NCBI GenBank assembly: GCA_029862165.1
Contig: JAOTXU010000014.1
Span: 1-64,000 of the forward strand
Reading direction: 5' to 3'
DNA length: 64,000 bases
Source: Gammaproteobacteria bacterium
Lineage (GTDB): Bacteria; Pseudomonadota; Gammaproteobacteria; Steroidobacterales; JABDKV01
Shown one piece after another: positions 36,832 through 44,960 of the stretch (within the stretch, counting starts at the first letter, position 1; every line of letters starts with the position of its first letter). The notes beneath the pieces were generated by a model that saw nothing but the letters and a program-made list of their open reading frames with translations, was not told where the DNA came from and ran no database searches. The position numbers and the translations under genes are program-made.

Positions 36832-37427
36832 AGTCCTGACTCCGCACGCCGGACAGCCGTGATGAATTCACGAATCCTATGCGGGTCTTTCTCGCCAGGC
36901 GCGCTTTCAACACCACTACTGACATCTACGCCATAGGGTTTAACTTGATGTATTGCCTCGCCCACATTATCGGCATCCAAACCCCCCGCCAGTATCAGTC
37001 GGCCACGCCGGGCTAGTGTTGCCGCATTATTCCAGTCCACTTTATTTCCCGCGCCACTTTGCACGCCCTCGTAAACAAACCATTGCGGTAACGTGCTGAC
37101 GTCTTCGCCGACACGGATGACCGGCAAAGCGCGTATGCCTGCCGGCAAAGTTTTTCCAACCAGATCATCACGATCGCTTTGCCACCACGCGGGTGCCAAT
37201 TCTGTTAGCACTGAACTGACAAAATCGTCCGGTGGTTGTCGCGTAACAACCACTGTTGCTGTTGACGGCGGCACAAGTCCGATCAGTTTTTTTGCCTGCT
37301 CGCTGTCGAGCTGCCGTGGCGACGGCGATAAAACCACTCCGACCGCGTCAGCCCCGGCATCACTAGCTGCATCAACGGCTTCGCGAGTGGTCAGACCGCA
37401 AATTTTCACGTATATGCGGTTTACCAT
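36828..37427 (-). CDS. trpF: Phosphoribosylanthranilate isomerase TrpF (divergent)
   Basis: A 199-residue TIM barrel; the catalytic Cys10 in VKICGLTT and DAVGVVLSPSPRQL are conserved, as are LAGGLDADNV and VDVSSGVESAPGEKD. Two regions differ from the usual family pattern: the VQLHG stretch reads AWWQSDRDDL, and the segment that normally carries the general-acid Asp reads FVYEGVQSGAGNKVDW, apparently with Glu. It is placed between trpC and trpB with overlaps on both sides, so function in the pathway is expected. Confidence 0.92.
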   Translation of the reverse strand: MVNRIYVKICGLTTREAVDAASDAGADAVGVVLSPSPRQLDSEQAKKLIGLVPPSTATVVVTRQPPDDFVSSVLTELAPAWWQSDRDDLVGKTLPAGIRALPVIRVGEDVSTLPQWFVYEGVQSGAGNKVDWNNAATLARRGRLILAGGLDADNVGEAIHQVKPYGVDVSSGVESAPGEKDPHRIREFITAVRRAESGL

Positions 37428-38242
37428 TGGGTCGCCTCGCGCCCGGCCACCAGCATTTTTGCCACCAGATCCTTTGGATTCTTGTCGCGCATCAGTGCGC
37501 TGCCAACCAATGCCAACTGATACCCGGCTTTGGCCACGGCGGCTGCATCCTTCGCCTCACTGAGACCACTTTCAGCAACACGCAGACAATTGGGTGGAAA
37601 TCGATTGGCCAGCGTGATCAAACGCTGGTTCTCAACTTCCTGTGTATCGAGATTGCGTGCGTTGAGGCCAACTAAGACGCGTTTGTTCACACTGACAAAC
37701 GGCACGGCGCGTTGCAAGTCACGCTCGTCAAAGGCTTCCAGCAACACGAACATTCTCGCCTGCGCAGCCGCTTCCAGCATATCCATGATGATGTGGTCGT
37801 CGAGAATCCGAAGGATCAGCAGGACACCACCCGCACCAGCCGCCGCCGCCTCCCACACCTGATAGACGTCGACAATAAAATCCTTGCGCATCGCCGGCAC
37901 ACCCAATGGCCGCAGTTCGGCTGCGATAGCACGCAAGTGTTCCATGTCGCCACCAAAACGTTCCGGTTCAGTCAGCACCGACACTGCCACGGCTCCTGCC
38001 TCGGCATAGCCCACGGCGCGTTGAATCAGATCCGTTTCTGATTCCTGCGATAACTCACCCTGTGACGGTGAAGCTTTTTTGATCTCGGCGATGAGGTCGA
38101 AACCCTCTGTGTTCGGTCTCAATGCTCCCATCTTTGGCATCGCCAGCGCCTCACACACCACAGCGTCCAGTGGTTTGACAGATTTTGCCTGCCACATACG
38201 CGCATGCGATGTATCGCACATGGTTTGCAGAAAACTGTTCAC
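37421..38242 (-). CDS. trpC: Indole-3-glycerol phosphate synthase
   Basis: A 273-residue enzyme. Substrate/catalytic segments seen: LIAEIKKASPSQG, SVLTEPERFGG, RKDFIVDVYQ, VGLNARNLDT and VAESGLSE. TrpC and TrpF are separate here, not fused as in E. coli. GTG start overlaps trpD (GTGA); the first few residues could be lost if a later Met is used. Confidence 0.96.
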   Translation of the reverse strand: MNSFLQTMCDTSHARMWQAKSVKPLDAVVCEALAMPKMGALRPNTEGFDLIAEIKKASPSQGELSQESETDLIQRAVGYAEAGAVAVSVLTEPERFGGDMEHLRAIAAELRPLGVPAMRKDFIVDVYQVWEAAAAGAGGVLLILRILDDHIIMDMLEAAAQARMFVLLEAFDERDLQRAVPFVSVNKRVLVGLNARNLDTQEVENQRLITLANRFPPNCLRVAESGLSEAKDAAAVAKAGYQLALVGSALMRDKNPKDLVAKMLVAGREATQW

Positions 38243-39273
38243 AGGCTCTTTCCAAATGCCTCGATTTTCTCGAGGACTTTGGCCGCGCGCCCGGTATTGA
38301 TGCTTTCTCTGACATGCGCGAGCGAAGAACGCCGACCCTTTGCCATGCCACTAACTTCGAGCATTAAGGCAGCACCGAGGGTCAATGCATCGTAGTGCGC
38401 TCCTAGCTCGCCGCACAATGCAGCGCGCAGCTTCGCCGCATTCTCCGCTGCATCACCGCCGGCCAGTGCTTCTGGTGTGCAGCGATCGAGTTTGTAATCC
38501 GAAGGATCACGTCGCTCTTCAATAACCTGGCCGGGGCGCACGTCGTACAACAGGAATGGTCCAACCGGTGTTGCTTCATCCCAACCCGGTTCACCGTGGA
38601 CAACGAAGACTCGCAGGATGTCCATGCCGGCAAGCGTATCAGCCATTAAACGCGCGACATGCGCGCTAAACGCGCCGATGACAGCATAGGGCGGTCGCGC
38701 CGGATTCGATAATGGGCCCAAAATATTAAACACCGTGCGCACACCCATGGCCGCACGAATCGGCGCAACGGTTTTCATTGCCGGGTGATAAAACGGCGCA
38801 AACAAAAAGGTAAATCCCGTCTCGTCCAGGCACCGAATGGCTGCCTGCTCGTCCAGTGGTAAGGGCAAGCCCAATTCCTCGAGCACATCCGCGCTGCCAC
38901 TTTTACTCGACACTGCCCGGTTGCCGTGTTTGACAACTCGCACACCGCTGGCCGCTGCCAACAACGCCGCCCCGGTAGAAATATTGAGACTGCCGGAACC
39001 GTCTCCACCGGTGCCGACACAATCCACCGCCGGCATGCCATCCGGAATACCCGGATCGACTGCCAGTTCACGCATCGTCGTAGCAAAACCACGAATCTCT
39101 GCAGCGGTTTCGCCTTTTAGCCGTAACGCCACCAGCACACCACCGGCCAACGCTGCCGGCAGGTCCGGATCGGTTAATGCCCGCATCAGGTCTGCAGAAT
39201 TTGACTCGGACAAATCTTTACCATCGAGCAAATCGCTCAGGGCCTGTTTGGCAATTCGGTGTGTCTCACTCAA
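38239..39273 (-). CDS. trpD: Anthranilate phosphoribosyltransferase
   Basis: A 344-residue enzyme transferring phosphoribose from PRPP to anthranilate. Motifs: DCVGTGGDGSGSLNIST (PRPP binding), VKHGNRAVSSKSGSADVLEELG, FAPFYHPAMK and RTVFNILGPLSNP. I place the start at a TTG (39273) overlapping the trpG stop, giving LSETHRIAKQAL and the usual length; the track's ATG 31 codons earlier lies within trpG and gives an atypical basic extension. Confidence 0.94.
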   Translation of the reverse strand: MSETHRIAKQALSDLLDGKDLSESNSADLMRALTDPDLPAALAGGVLVALRLKGETAAEIRGFATTMRELAVDPGIPDGMPAVDCVGTGGDGSGSLNISTGAALLAAASGVRVVKHGNRAVSSKSGSADVLEELGLPLPLDEQAAIRCLDETGFTFLFAPFYHPAMKTVAPIRAAMGVRTVFNILGPLSNPARPPYAVIGAFSAHVARLMADTLAGMDILRVFVVHGEPGWDEATPVGPFLLYDVRPGQVIEERRDPSDYKLDRCTPEALAGGDAAENAAKLRAALCGELGAHYDALTLGAALMLEVSGMAKGRRSSLAHVRESINTGRAAKVLEKIEAFGKSL

Positions 39274-39845
39274 CGCCCGATCTCCATCTGCAGGTAGTTT
39301 CCAAGCAAACGGTCGCCTTGTGGTGTCAGAACACTTTCGGGATGAAACTGAACGCCTTCGACGCACAAACCCCGATGCCGTACTGCCATGATCTCCCCAT
39401 CGGCCGTACGCGCACTGATCTCCAGCTCGTCGGGCAGGTCAACCGCCGCCAATGAATGATATCGCCCCGCCACCAGTGGTAGCCCGATGTCGGCAAAAAC
39501 ACCCTTGCCATCGTGCGTTACGGCCGAGCTTTTACCGTGCATCAGGGTACGCGCGGCATCGACTCGTCCGCCAAATGCCTCGACTATCGACTGGTGACCC
39601 AGACATACGCCAAGCACGGGGACTTTGCCGGCGCAGGCCTGTATCGCGGCGACAGAAATACCGGCATCGGCCGGCCGTCCAGGTCCAGGCGAGATGACCA
39701 GATGACTGAGACCGGTCCGCCAAATTTCATCGACTGCAATCGCATCGTTACGCTGCACATCGACTTCAGCACCCAATAGCCGAAACGCCTGCACAAGGTT
39801 GTAAGTGAATGAGTCGTAGTTATCGATAAGCAGCACGTGCGGCAT
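39270..39845 (-). CDS. trpG: Anthranilate synthase glutaminase component
   Basis: A 191-residue class I glutamine amidotransferase supplying ammonia to TrpE. It has DNYDSFTYNL, the oxyanion loop SPGPGRP, nucleophile Cys in GVCLGHQ and the His/Glu pair in VQFHPES. In many bacteria the subunit is shared with folate synthesis (PabA); no separate pabA is in the window. ATG at 39845 overlaps the trpE stop (TGATG); a GTG one codon earlier is possible. Confidence 0.96.
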   Translation of the reverse strand: MPHVLLIDNYDSFTYNLVQAFRLLGAEVDVQRNDAIAVDEIWRTGLSHLVISPGPGRPADAGISVAAIQACAGKVPVLGVCLGHQSIVEAFGGRVDAARTLMHGKSSAVTHDGKGVFADIGLPLVAGRYHSLAAVDLPDELEISARTADGEIMAVRHRGLCVEGVQFHPESVLTPQGDRLLGNYLQMEIGR

Positions 39846-41233
39846 CACAAGCCCTCGCCTGCAATAACGAGCGCGCGTTGCAGGATTGCACTCTTGGCCA
39901 GGACTTCCTGGTATTCAGTTTCCGGCACACTATCAGAGACAATTCCGGCACCGGCTTGGTAACTGTAATGTCCCTTGTCAAAAACGAGGGTGCGTATCGC
40001 GATGGCCTGGTCCATTCCGCCTCGATGAGCGAAATACCCGACGGTACCACCGTAGAGACCGCGTCGTTGCGGTTCATTCTCGTCGATCAACTCCATTGCT
40101 CTGACTTTGGGGGCGCCGACGAGCGTACCGGCCGGGAATGCAGCGGCAAAAAGATCAAATGCATCATAACCTGGCTCCAGCTCGCCCTGCACACCACTAA
40201 CGATGTGCATCACGTGCGAGTAGCGCTCGATTTTGCGAAACGGTTTGACGTTGATCGTGCCAGGCCTGGCCACCCGACCCAAATCGTTGCGTGCCAGATC
40301 GACCAACATCACGTGTTCAGCACCTTCTTTTGGATCTGCCAGCAGGGCAGCCTCCAGCGCCTGATCCTGCGCCGCGTCAGCGCCACGTGGACGAGTGCCG
40401 GCTATTGGGCGCAACGATGCCTCACCATTTTCGTCCAAACGCACAAGCGCTTCAGGCGACGAACCGGCCACAGCGGAATCACCAAAACGAAAAAAGTACA
40501 TATAGGGAGACGGGTTGAGTAAACGCAGAGCGCGATAGGCATCGAAGGGATCGATATCTGTCTTGCCGGAAAAACAGACCGACAACACAATCTGATAAAC
40601 ATCTCCAGTTGCAATGTAGCCCTGCGCTTTCCTGACCAGTTGCCGGTATTGCTCGGGCTCAAGACTGGCCTGTGGTGCTTCAACTGCCGTTGGGCCACGC
40701 TGTGGTGGCAGTGGCCCGCGCAATGCGTCGATGACTTCCTTGCGCAACGCCTGGCGTTGTCTGTCGCTGCCGTCGTGCAGCAATGCCACCCGCCGGGTCA
40801 GATGATCGAAAACCAGCAATGAAGCCGGTGCGGTGTATGCCGCGTCAGGTACGCGCGGCAATTTGCGCGCGAGATCGGGCAACCGCTCAAACTGCCGCAC
40901 CAGATCGTAGGCCGCCACGCCGACCAGACCGCCCTGAAAAGGCAGGCCTTCGATGAAAGGCCCGGGTTTCGGTGCGCGGGCCAGGGCACCGCGCATTGCG
41001 GCAAGGACACCGTCGCGTCCGGGTGTGAGCTCCTCGGTTTGTCTATTGATTTCTAACTCACCGTCGCGCAAACGCAGGTTCAATGCGTCGCCGAATCCAA
41101 TGAAAGAGTAACGTGCCAGACTGACGCCCCCTTCTACACTTTCCAATAGGAAGTGGGGCGAAAACGGCTCCAATTTGCGAAACGCGGAAACTGGTGTATC
41201 CAGATCAGCTGCTATATCGAACGGTGGCTGCAT
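39845..41233 (-). CDS. trpE: Anthranilate synthase component I
   Basis: A 462-residue chorismate-using enzyme, first of the Trp pathway. The feedback-inhibition motif LLES (residues 29-32) is present, implying allosteric inhibition by tryptophan. The catalytic half shows PSPYMYFFRFGD, IAGTRPRG, EHVMLVDLARNDLGRV and GAPKVRAMELI. It is the first structural gene of trpEGDCFBA and is preceded by a leader peptide and attenuator. Confidence 0.97.
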   Translation of the reverse strand: MQPPFDIAADLDTPVSAFRKLEPFSPHFLLESVEGGVSLARYSFIGFGDALNLRLRDGELEINRQTEELTPGRDGVLAAMRGALARAPKPGPFIEGLPFQGGLVGVAAYDLVRQFERLPDLARKLPRVPDAAYTAPASLLVFDHLTRRVALLHDGSDRQRQALRKEVIDALRGPLPPQRGPTAVEAPQASLEPEQYRQLVRKAQGYIATGDVYQIVLSVCFSGKTDIDPFDAYRALRLLNPSPYMYFFRFGDSAVAGSSPEALVRLDENGEASLRPIAGTRPRGADAAQDQALEAALLADPKEGAEHVMLVDLARNDLGRVARPGTINVKPFRKIERYSHVMHIVSGVQGELEPGYDAFDLFAAAFPAGTLVGAPKVRAMELIDENEPQRRGLYGGTVGYFAHRGGMDQAIAIRTLVFDKGHYSYQAGAGIVSDSVPETEYQEVLAKSAILQRALVIAGEGL

Positions 41234-41255
41234 AATTCAATTTTTTCCGGGCATT

Positions 41256-41341
41256 AAAAAACCCACCCCCGATTGACGGGGATGGGCTGTATCAAGCTTT
41301 GATGCAGTAAGTCTTACCCGCTAACGGGTACAGCCATCCCC
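41256..41341 (-). promoter_or_regulatory. trp operon attenuator (antiterminator and terminator)
   Basis: On the minus strand, CCCATCCCCG-TCAAT-CGGGGGTGGG (41286-41262) forms a 10-pair stem with one G-U pair, followed by TTTTTT (41261-41256): a strong intrinsic terminator just before trpE. Its 5' arm, extended as TACAGCCCATCCCC (41291-41278), can instead pair with GGGGATGGCTGTA (41341-41329) with a single bulge, forming the antiterminator. The upstream arm starts 12 bases after the second Trp codon of the leader, so a ribosome stalled there would leave it free. Confidence 0.88.
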
Positions 41342-41382
41342 TGTGGAAGGCGCCAGCGCCAACCGGTGTTCGGGGGAAGCAT
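41314..41382 (-). CDS. trpL: trp operon leader peptide
   Basis: A 22-codon ORF, absent from the supplied track. It encodes a peptide containing GWRWR, with TGG at codons 8 and 10, and ends TAA inside the region that competes for antiterminator pairing. This matches the design of trp leader peptides: low charged tRNA-Trp stalls the ribosome and favours antitermination. In-frame GTG codons 9 and 18 bases upstream are alternative starts; no strong Shine-Dalgarno is seen for the ATG. Confidence 0.85.
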   Translation of the reverse strand: MLPPNTGWRWRLPQGMAVPVSG

Positions 41383-41406
41383 TCGCGACACGACATTCAC
41401 GCCCCA

Positions 41407-41436
41407 ATTCTTACAGTCATTATCCGGCGTCGTCAA
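41407..41436 (-). promoter_or_regulatory. Likely trp operon promoter
   Basis: TTGACG (41436-41431) followed after 17-18 bases by TAAGAA/AAGAAT with a TG just upstream. A start near 41400 would place the trpL ATG about 18 bases into the transcript. No E. coli-type TrpR operator is visible. Confidence 0.5.
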
Positions 41437-41441
41437 CCAGT

Positions 41442-43280
41442 TTAATCAAGTTGATACATCATGGGCATCAGGAACGAGAAGGCCAGCCACATAATGATGG
41501 TCAGTGGGATGCCGACCCGGAGGAAATCCGAGAACTTGTAGCCACCGGCGCTGAACACTAGCAGGTTGGTCTGGTAGCCCATCGGCGTCGCGAAGCTCAT
41601 GTTTGCGCCAAATAATACGGCCAACACGAACGCTTCCGGCGCGGCACCGATTTCGGTGGCGACGCTGACGGCAATCGGCGTGCCGATGACGGCTGCTGCA
41701 TTGTTCGAGACGACGTTGGTCAGTAACGCGATCAGCAGCATAAGCCCACTCAGCACCATCGGCGTCGGCAAACCAAAGGTCATGGCGACGAACAGGTGCG
41801 CAACAAATTCGGCACCACCGGTCGCCATTAAAGCGACACCCAGCCCCAAACTGGCAACGATTATCAGAATAACCGGGGTGCTGAGAGCGCCGGCCGCATT
41901 ACGCCAGTCCAGACACCGGGTCAGAATCATCAGGGCAACACCAGTCAGCGAACTCACAGAAATTGGCAACAGACCGGTAGCTGCCGAAATTACGACGAAA
42001 GCAATAATGCCCAGCGCCGTATTCGCGCGTTTGGTGTGCGGGAGGTCAGTCGTACCATCGAGCACCAGCATCTGGCCGCCCCGCTTGAGGCCGTTGATGT
42101 GGTCGGGCGAACCCTGAACGAGCAGTACATCGCCCGCGCGCAGCCGTATTTCATCGATCCCGCGCCCGGTATCGACCACATGCGTGCGTGCGCGATGAAT
42201 CGCGAGCGGCACCAAGCGGAAACGCGTCGTAAATCGGGTCGAACGCAGCGTGCGATGGTGCAGCAGCGATCCGCGCGTCACCACAACTTCGGCCAGTTGT
42301 TGTTCCGGTGGCAACGGCGAATCCGGGGTGTCAGGCTGCGGCTGCTCGCTATCGGGTTGATGCAATGTTGCGCCAATTAGTTGCTCGAACTCTTTGAGCA
42401 TCTCGGGTGTGTCGTTGACATAGAGACGATCACCGACCTGCATCACTACCGAAGGCAATTTGGCAACGAACAAGCCCTCACCACGCTGGATGCGAGACAC
42501 CGTCATGCGGTTATCGGTACGGGCAAGCACTTCGGACAGCGTCTTGCCCGTCGCAAAGCTTTCCTCGTTGACATACAACTGCGCGTTAAATATACGCGGT
42601 GATGTATCCTGCATGGGCGCGCGACGCTCCGGCAGCAACCGCGGTGCAATGAGCCACAGGAACAAGATGCCGACGCTGCCGGCAATCAACACCGGTAGGG
42701 TGAAATAAAACATGCTCATCCGGCCCAGACCGAGATCGGCAGCGATGCCCACAACCAGCAAATTGGTAGATGTGCCGATCGTCGTGGCCATGCCACCGAT
42801 CAGCGTGGCCAGACCCATTGGCATGAGGATTTCGGATGGCGCGGTCCGATTGCGCAATGCCACGCTGACCATTATCGGCAACAGCATGACGACGATGGGT
42901 GTGTTGTTCAAAAACGCGCTAAGTGCGGCGGCGACGATGAGCGTTGCCAAAAGAGAAATCTTCGGACGTTCTTTCCAGCCCTTGGACATCAGGATAGCAA
43001 CCGGTCGCAACGCACCGGTCGCCTCCAGACCGCGACCGACTATCAGCAGCGCGGCGATGGTAATGAGCGCTTCGTGACCAAAACCGGCAAAAAAATCGGT
43101 AACCCGTACGGGTACACCATTGCGCTCGTATGGAAAGATCTCGAATACCAGCACCAGTGTTACCAGCACTACGAGACAAGAGCTCTCCAACGGAACGCGG
43201 TCCCGGGTAAACAGGAACAACGCAACGACGGTAAGTAGCAACGCGAAGATCGCGTGTGCATCAGGAATAATCGGTTGCAA
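41442..43280 (-). CDS. SLC13 family permease with two TrkA-C domains
   Basis: A 612-residue transporter of the DASS/ArsB-like fold: an N-terminal helix bundle with AALSAFLNNTPIVVMLLPIM and IGTSTNLLV, then two central RCK_C-type domains (QLYVNEESFATGKTLSEV; FTTRFRLVPLAIHRARTHV), then a second helix bundle containing LTNVVSNNAAAVIGTPIA and SFATPMGYQTN. The two NNT/SNN and TN repeat motifs are the sodium and substrate sites of the family. Substrate (sulfate, dicarboxylate or other anion) cannot be read. The trp promoter starts right after its stop codon. Confidence 0.9.
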   Translation of the reverse strand: MQPIIPDAHAIFALLLTVVALFLFTRDRVPLESSCLVVLVTLVLVFEIFPYERNGVPVRVTDFFAGFGHEALITIAALLIVGRGLEATGALRPVAILMSKGWKERPKISLLATLIVAAALSAFLNNTPIVVMLLPIMVSVALRNRTAPSEILMPMGLATLIGGMATTIGTSTNLLVVGIAADLGLGRMSMFYFTLPVLIAGSVGILFLWLIAPRLLPERRAPMQDTSPRIFNAQLYVNEESFATGKTLSEVLARTDNRMTVSRIQRGEGLFVAKLPSVVMQVGDRLYVNDTPEMLKEFEQLIGATLHQPDSEQPQPDTPDSPLPPEQQLAEVVVTRGSLLHHRTLRSTRFTTRFRLVPLAIHRARTHVVDTGRGIDEIRLRAGDVLLVQGSPDHINGLKRGGQMLVLDGTTDLPHTKRANTALGIIAFVVISAATGLLPISVSSLTGVALMILTRCLDWRNAAGALSTPVILIIVASLGLGVALMATGGAEFVAHLFVAMTFGLPTPMVLSGLMLLIALLTNVVSNNAAAVIGTPIAVSVATEIGAAPEAFVLAVLFGANMSFATPMGYQTNLLVFSAGGYKFSDFLRVGIPLTIIMWLAFSFLMPMMYQLD

Positions 43281-43463: not shown

Positions 43464-44033
43464 CTAATGCACGCCACGTGATTGACCTCGCTTGCGGCAG
43501 CCCGGGCACACCGTTTTGGTCAGGGACAGTGAATCGTGCATGTAGATATTCTGACACGTCGCACAGCGGGTGAACTGCAGCTCGTCGCCACGGACCAGCG
43601 CGTCCAGCAGAAACCAGGCGCGTTCGAAACAGATACGCCGTGCCGGATGCAGAAGGCAGTACATGTCATAGGCGAGGCAAAAACGTTGGCCGAACTCCAC
43701 TGTAGATTTTGAAAGCAACAATTTGGGTGATTGACCGAGCCGTAACAGAATCAAGCCCGCATCGGCGAAGAGCAGGCCCAGCGTGCTGGATTCGCTCTGA
43801 TGCAGGCCAGTCTTTACGTACACGGAAATCCGTGACGGTGGTTTGCCACGTTGGCGACGCACCTGCATCAATGGCTCTTCCTTGAAATAGGTGGTGTAGA
43901 TTTTTCGTATGCGGTCATCGGAAAGACCGGTGCAGGTTCTGATCGTGCAGGTGCGCGCCTCATAGGCGATCATCCGCATGGCCAATTCAAATTGCGTGCG
44001 TTCACGAGCGTAGCGACTGTCACTGATTCTCAT
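43464..44033 (-). CDS. FlhC-like transcriptional regulator
   Basis: A 189-residue protein resembling FlhC, the DNA-binding partner of FlhD. The helical core (ERTQFELAMRMIAYEARTCTIRTCTGLSDDRIRKIYTTYF) and, near the C-terminus, AWFLLDALVRGDELQFTRCATCQ...CPGC line up with FlhC's zinc-binding region including four Cys. The ATG at 44033 follows AGGGAGGG; the 31 extra residues in the track ORF are dropped. It is divergent from an FlhD-like gene, but no flagellar gene is present, so it may control another regulon. Confidence 0.78.
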   Translation of the reverse strand: MRISDSRYARERTQFELAMRMIAYEARTCTIRTCTGLSDDRIRKIYTTYFKEEPLMQVRRQRGKPPSRISVYVKTGLHQSESSTLGLLFADAGLILLRLGQSPKLLLSKSTVEFGQRFCLAYDMYCLLHPARRICFERAWFLLDALVRGDELQFTRCATCQNIYMHDSLSLTKTVCPGCRKRGQSRGVH

Positions 44034-44342
44034 CCTGGTCCCTCCCTCTCGGACCGAACGTCGGGGTGACGAATTGAAACGCCTGGACCCGCAATCTGTC
44101 CCCACCCTATTTGTTCCAAAATGCACAGATATGCTACGGTCGGGACGAAAATTGTGCGAAATAGTACAATCCAGAGGCCCATTCCTTGGGTTTTGAATGA
44201 TTTAAAATTAGAAAGGATGAATCAAAAAACACTCTATTTCATATAGTTATCAAGAGTGCCATGTTAGATCGCCGATGGCACAATGCAACAAATTCGTGCC
44301 AGTGTCACTGGCACAAAACCAACCACTGCGGAGGAGAGTCTC
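44034..44342. other. Divergent regulatory region between FlhC-like and FlhD-like genes
   Basis: 309 bp with no ORF I can support. It holds an AT-rich core (about 44195-44250, TTGAATGATTTAAAATTAG), an imperfect operator-like repeat ATTGT-N10-ACAAT (44151-44170), and the palindrome at 44296-44314. The arrangement suggests promoters for both genes under shared control, but I cannot place -10/-35 boxes confidently. Confidence 0.5.
44296..44314. promoter_or_regulatory. Perfect 9-bp inverted repeat, possible operator
   Basis: GTGCCAGTG-T-CACTGGCAC. It ends 28 bases before the FlhD-like ATG, upstream of its GGAGGAG ribosome site. It could be a repressor/autoregulatory site or form an RNA hairpin in the 5' leader. 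Confidence 0.55.
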
Positions 44343-44960
44343 ATGCCGGCAAATGATCTCACCGGCAACGTAATCGAGCCGGAATTGGGTCGTCACATCC
44401 TGGCCGAACTTGCGGACCTGAACGCGGACTTCATCAGCCTAATTAAAAGTACTGAATCGTGCATCCATCGACCATCACTGCCCGACGAACAAATCGAACA
44501 ATTACGTGCGTTGAGCAAGCCTGCTGTCCGTCGTTTGACCAATTGCGCATTCGCGCTGTTTGATTTGCGTTTACAAGACGCGGACCTGTGGCGTGCCTTA
44601 GGGGACGGCAAACCACCCAAGGGATTCTCCGTCAATGACGCACTCGGTGGCAACGAGCTACACGGTCCGGTCCGATTATTCACACTGTCGGCGTTGATGT
44701 ATCTGCGGCACTTGTCCGATATCAATCGCTTTTTTGCCAAGCTGAGTTTTGGCGTCTCACCGGAAGTGCTTGAAATCGTCAGCAAGTTAGCCATTAACCA
44801 ACTACGTGAAATCGCAAACCGGTATCCGACCTTGCTTTGCGGCCGGTTTGGACAACACCCACAGGCCTGGACCGATCTTCTGAAACTGGCTAAACGCAAC
44901 GATACCGAACCGATGTTACCGGCCAAGATACTTGGCTATAAGCATCTCTACCAGCAGTAG
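44343..44960 (+). CDS. Protein with two tandem FlhD-like domains
   Basis: A 205-residue protein. Residues about 20-90 (LADLNADF...LPDEQIEQLRALSKPAVRRL...LFDLRLQDADLWRAL) and 115-190 (DINRFFAKLSFGVSPEVLEIVSKLAINQLREIA...LLCGRFGQ) align with each other by eye and with E. coli FlhD, including the motif around FlhD's LVCHFRF. FlhD is normally a single ~116-residue domain that dimerises and binds FlhC. Start chosen at the ATG behind GGAGGAG (44343). Its neighbour is the FlhC-like gene, so a heteromeric regulator is likely. Domain assignment is by eye and needs a profile search. Confidence 0.6.
   Translation: MPANDLTGNVIEPELGRHILAELADLNADFISLIKSTESCIHRPSLPDEQIEQLRALSKPAVRRLTNCAFALFDLRLQDADLWRALGDGKPPKGFSVNDALGGNELHGPVRLFTLSALMYLRHLSDINRFFAKLSFGVSPEVLEIVSKLAINQLREIANRYPTLLCGRFGQHPQAWTDLLKLAKRNDTEPMLPAKILGYKHLYQQ

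Follow-up and report, generated by a model that had tools for sequence, protein, structure and literature searches.

FlhDC is a textbook hetero-oligomeric regulator. In E. coli, the FlhD dimer is linked via Cys65 and FlhC makes most of the contact with DNA, and FlhC mutants at R37, R39, K42, and K45 lose DNA binding (PMC3510510). Several relatives of the system are known. SetCD of the SXT/R391 elements and AcaCD of the IncA/C plasmids are FlhDC homologs that serve as mobile-element activators (PMC4344509, PMC4605294), and BisDC of ICEclc is an autoregulated two-protein activator whose BisC subunit is FlhC-like (PMC7423338).

We analyzed a stretch of 64,000 nucleotides of gammaproteobacterial DNA, referred to as the window, which is part of contig C3 in a genome of 3.34 Mb (94.5% complete). 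It carries a divergent pair of genes related to flhD and flhC. In the first of these, which we call dflhD, one chain holds two FlhD units that probably arose by tandem duplication and fusion of an ancestral flhD; the fusion is real and conserved. A literature search for fused or tandem FlhD, or for FlhC in Woeseia, returned nothing relevant among open-licence papers, and the fused FlhD is apparently undescribed there. The coding features are as follows.

44343 to 44960, plus strand: dflhD, a fused tandem FlhD of 205 aa (open reading frame with ribosome-binding site, Pfam FlhD, AlphaFold2 model, Foldseek)
44330 to 44338, plus strand: ribosome-binding site of dflhD, GGAGGAGAG, read from the sequence just 5′ of the ATG
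44397 to 44612, plus strand: FlhD repeat 1, the N half (whole-genome FlhD profile match; half alone E 0.0056)
44667 to 44909, plus strand: FlhD repeat 2, the C half, of full FlhD length (whole-genome FlhD profile match; half alone E 0.0065)
43464 to 44033, minus strand: FlhC-like gene, 189 aa, transcribed divergently from dflhD (Pfam FlhC, PDB profile match, Foldseek)

The dflhD start codon is the ATG at 44343. The whole protein matched Pfam FlhD (PF05247) over two stretches with E 4.3e-7 and 30.5 bits, above the curated cut-off, which is 27 bits for FlhD and FlhC (PF05280) alike. The earlier note on this DNA had proposed a tandem FlhD-like duplication and a profile search with each half, and both halves did match the family, with E 0.0056 for residues 1-100 alone and E 0.0065 for residues 101-205 alone. 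Among 62 dFlhD relatives, 32 matched Pfam FlhD at E 1 or better. When a profile of this 62-member family was compared with solved chains, the N half found the FlhD of 5hxg (E 6.7e-7) and of 1g8e (E 8.4e-6), and the C half found Cupriavidus FlhD, 8j56 (E 4.7e-8). The two halves also align with each other: hhalign of the N-half against the C-half columns gave a score of 28.3 over 79 columns (P 3.1e-5), against a top score of 16.6 in 20 column shuffles and one reversal. The internal repeat is well above chance. As for the register that had been set by eye, the placement of LPDEQIEQLRALSKPAVRRL on VSPEVLEIVSKLAINQLREI recurs in hhalign, whereas the pairing of LFDLRL with LLCGRF is off by one. The whole-genome profile search found no other FlhD in the window genome.

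The predicted structure points the same way. In the AlphaFold2 model (pLDDT 87.6, pTM 0.86), each half forms FlhD-like helices around a short strand, and the only high-probability Foldseek matches in the PDB were FlhD chains (0.85-0.99). The best were 8j56_E (probability 0.99, TM 0.74 by target length) and 2avu_B (probability 0.99, TM 0.70 by target length), with weak E values of 0.27 and 0.33, respectively. Each FlhD target spans only half of the query; instead of a single FlhD domain of about 100-116 aa, dFlhD comprises two units in 205 aa. The copies have diverged, as the note had thought a fusion would allow: the second repeat has the whole FlhD length, with modeled helices from 108-127 to 192-204, running to residue 204, and the first (helices 13-36, 48-55, 59-66, and 80-87) is missing the C-terminal FlhD helix, where the linker follows. 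No conserved cysteine occupies the place of E. coli Cys65 in either half, across the dFlhD family. In a Woeseiaceae subclade (L070, L078, L091, L098, L132, and L136), the stretch of repeat 1 after the first helix is gone, and repeat 2 is complete.

The divergent neighbor, which had been suspected of being FlhC-like, is indeed an FlhC relative, with the zinc site preserved and the DNA-contact surface apparently preserved in part. The window copy matched Pfam FlhC with E 8.4e-6 and 26.1 bits, just below the cut-off of 27, and all 34 FlhC-like relatives matched with E values no higher than 1, the lowest being 9.7e-10. The family profile found the PDB FlhC of Cupriavidus with E 5.2e-8, and Foldseek matched the model (pLDDT 88.7) to 8j56_C (E 7.5e-6, TM 0.75 by target length) and 2avu_E (E 5.3e-5). 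The zinc cysteines C158, C161, C177, and C180 (CxxC...CxxC) and the basic residues R42 and K45, all in P0002 numbering, are invariant across the family. By residue matching done by eye, R42 and K45 are the equivalents of E. coli R39 and K42, and the equivalents of E. coli R37 and K45 vary.

The order that holds the Woeseiaceae is abundant in marine sediment, and the pair is widespread within it. In 25 of 25 relative loci picked by dFlhD, the FlhC-like gene was adjacent and divergent. In the other direction, an alignment scan of species genomes for the FlhC-like protein gave 261 relatives, of which 80 were retained, bearing the names Woeseiaceae, Chromatiales, and unclassified Gammaproteobacteria and Proteobacteria. 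dFlhD was adjacent and divergent in 79 of these 80 loci, with the one exception (L061) at a contig edge, which is a fair test because the loci were picked without reference to dFlhD. The FlhC-like gene was present in 47 of 59 genomes of the order and in 41 of its 46 good genomes; scoring of the best first-look candidates from 323 class-wide and 398 phylum-wide genomes revealed none in other orders. Elsewhere in the class, FlhD matches that exceeded the cut-off lay in single-domain frames of 105-170 aa. The double FlhD with its FlhC-like partner is an order-wide chromosomal module, not a one-off fusion. The FlhC-like tree recovers the families as largely monophyletic, with f11 as the exception, and inheritance within the order is apparently vertical.

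Several observations concern individual genomes and the surroundings of the pair. One genome, G032, holds two dFlhD/FlhC-like pairs (L043 and L055), and the FlhC-like copy of L043 is very divergent. In G029, the FlhC-like match lies in two pieces (C7:157286-157980) beside an intact dFlhD, reflecting a frameshift or an assembly error. The FlhC-like gene is absent from the small genomes of the order (1.4-2.3 Mb; G009, G017, G018, G030, and others), which may be a matter of genome reduction. Downstream of the FlhC-like gene, window positions 37421-43280 (minus strand) carry tryptophan-biosynthesis-like genes and a membrane permease gene; families f1, f5, and f9 share the permease gene, and f1 and f5 have the tryptophan genes as well. 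A target of the pair in cis was considered and rejected, as the neighbors past the two genes vary from family to family.

The start codons of the two genes are 309 bp apart, and the region between them contains the following candidate sites.

44034 to 44342, no strand assigned: shared divergent promoter region, between both start codons
44109 to 44122, no strand assigned: dyad A, ATTTTGGAACAAAT as read on the minus strand, a candidate half of the operator, conserved in L033
44150 to 44162, no strand assigned: dyad B, ATTTCGCACAATT as read on the minus strand, spaced 41 bp from dyad A and placed by gapless alignment to the second dyad of L033
44296 to 44314, no strand assigned: 19-bp palindrome GTGCCAGTGTCACTGGCAC upstream of dflhD, from the alignment of the window with L033 and L034; the top dyad of the region

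Dyad A has its sole exact copy in the window genome here. Paired sites recur across the order. Woeseiaceae-type loci have a strongly conserved stretch before the FlhC-like gene, TTACTATATTT..TTG.T.GACCAT.TATGGAT..TATA.GCT......ACTATATATGGTC, and CCATATATGG-like box pairs were found in 76 of 81 intergenic regions. Pairs scoring 16/20 or better occurred in 66 of the 81 regions compared with 0.55 in dinucleotide shuffles, an excess that is descriptive, as the motif was derived from these same, related loci and the counts are not independent. The boxes were 31 bp apart in 53 loci, 20 bp in 13, and 51 bp in 4, or about 3, 2, and 5 turns, and such whole-turn spacing across families is not easily accounted for in another way. 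Families f5, f9, and f1 have different dyads, 41 bp apart: f5 has two copies of the 20-bp TTTGGTCCATTTGGACCAAA, f9 has dyads of the AATTGCGCC/GGAGCAATT type, and the sister genome of the window (f1) has two copies of (A)ATTTGGAACAAAT. Allowing up to 3 mismatches, the f5 dyad occurs almost solely at the dFlhD/FlhC-like locus in f5 genomes, and the f1 dyad is likewise nearly unique to this locus in its genome.

To judge from these sequences, the paired dyads, with a phasing of about 20, 31, or 41 bp, are a probable autoregulatory operator. One of the two boxes in Woeseiaceae sits between -35-like and -10-like elements, which suggests repression. Another regulator could also bind the dyads. When 8 genomes were searched for a regulon with GACCATATATGGTC, allowing no more than 2 mismatches, 31 sites turned up, compared with 19 for the reversed control; many of the sites fell within genes, and no regulon could be drawn from them. 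The palindrome GTGCCAGTGTCACTGGCAC, seen in the window's own family, is unchanged in L033 and almost unchanged in L034, with diverged flanks; it may be bound by another regulator or form an mRNA hairpin.

Taking these results together, we think it probable that the pair descends from FlhDC and serves as a two-gene transcription regulator: a fused FlhD pair works with an FlhC-like partner, and the regulator controls its own synthesis and has mostly non-flagellar targets. The FlhD units would pair within the chain, replacing the FlhD homodimer, and two dFlhD chains with two FlhC-like subunits would make up a ring equivalent to FlhD4C2. As in E. coli, DNA contact would be made mainly through the FlhC-like subunit. 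The complex may bind the paired dyads between the genes, thereby controlling its own synthesis, and weaker sites may place other, mostly non-flagellar genes under its control. We offer more tentatively, as something that may hold but that we would not presume, that it is the order-wide core non-flagellar global regulator, made of a single-chain FlhD dimer and FlhC, with the spacing of its boxes shifted between families by whole helical turns alone.

One alternative is that the pair is an FlhDC ortholog, with its FlhD fused, that acts as flagellar master regulator in this lineage as FlhDC does in E. coli. The FlhD and FlhC homology speaks for it, as do the flagellin and FliG of the window genome and the lack of any other FlhD there. 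The distribution of FliG speaks against it. Of the 46 good genomes, 19 had the FlhC-like gene and FliG, 22 the FlhC-like gene without FliG, 5 neither, and none FliG alone; a one-sided Fisher test of the association, computed by hand on these 46 genomes, gave about 0.06, and flagellin showed a picture similar to that of FliG. In a survey of sediment Woeseiaceae, flagellar genes occurred in most of the metagenome-assembled genomes and were treated as niche-specific (PMC12175321). Because fliG is missing from 22 of the 41 good genomes that carry the FlhC-like gene, more than half, flagellar control is unlikely to be the general function of the pair, and the flagellar implication of the earlier note is not supported at that level; in flagellated members, the window genome among them, a flagellar role is possible. 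The gene arrangement also counts against this alternative. In flagellar clusters, a FleQ-type regulator lies close to fliG, including in the window genome, where the FleQ-type gene (C12:94914) is near fliG (C12:90831), with a match only just above the cut-off. In the window, the dflhD/FlhC-like pair does not adjoin flagellar genes, and its genes are divergent rather than an operon. We therefore regard a lineage-wide flagellar master regulator as unlikely, and it seems that a motility switch has here been repurposed.

The internal pairing that our preferred reading assigns to the two FlhD units can be questioned separately. The halves might form no dimer at all, with the N half as a scaffold or ligand-binding piece and the C half alone making FlhD contacts between chains, and the N repeat is indeed shorter, without the last FlhD helix, and partly deleted in a Woeseiaceae subclade. 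Yet the N half of the window protein fits the FlhD profile no less well than the C half and retains much of the FlhD secondary structure, so we find this arrangement rather doubtful, if still worth considering. That the pair is a SetCD/AcaCD-like mobile-element activator settled in the chromosome is suggested by the known non-flagellar FlhDC homologs, which are of this kind (PMC4344509, PMC4605294). However, the FlhC-like protein had no match in 72,556 plasmid and 50,697 phage records, the gene is near-universal in one order with mostly monophyletic families, and transfer genes were not seen in the conserved neighborhood. Given the lack of any plasmid or phage match and the order-wide distribution, we rejected this origin as very improbable.

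Through a natural fusion, two FlhD units are tied together in cis and each copy is free to specialize, so that what individual FlhD positions do in the FlhD4C2 ring can be tested. That species lacking flagella have kept the pair suggests a regulatory circuit, so far unstudied, in abundant sediment bacteria, and the paired dyads provide a ready-made binding-site hypothesis for it.

Compared with FlhDC of E. coli, Salmonella, and Cupriavidus, the present pair is alike in FlhD and FlhC homology, by profile and by fold, and in the zinc cysteines that FlhC has in common with the FlhC-like partner; the paired symmetric DNA sites of this locus would be an analog of the FlhD4C2 box. It differs in having two FlhD units per chain where FlhD is unfused, divergent genes in place of the flhDC operon, and a presence in many genomes without flagella, whereas FlhDC is the flagellar master regulator. 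The FlhDC box consists of 17-18-bp inverted repeats with a 10-11-bp spacer, whereas the dyad centers here are 20, 31, or 41 bp apart, and the Cys65 link of the E. coli FlhD dimer has no conserved counterpart in dFlhD. BisDC resembles the pair in that BisC, like our partner protein, is FlhC-like, but BisD is a ParB-domain protein in which no FlhD domain was detected, and the system belongs to a mobile element. SetCD and AcaCD are FlhDC-type regulators with a non-flagellar role, as we read the present pair; they are borne by mobile elements, whereas dFlhD and its partner form a chromosomal module of one order, with a fused FlhD.
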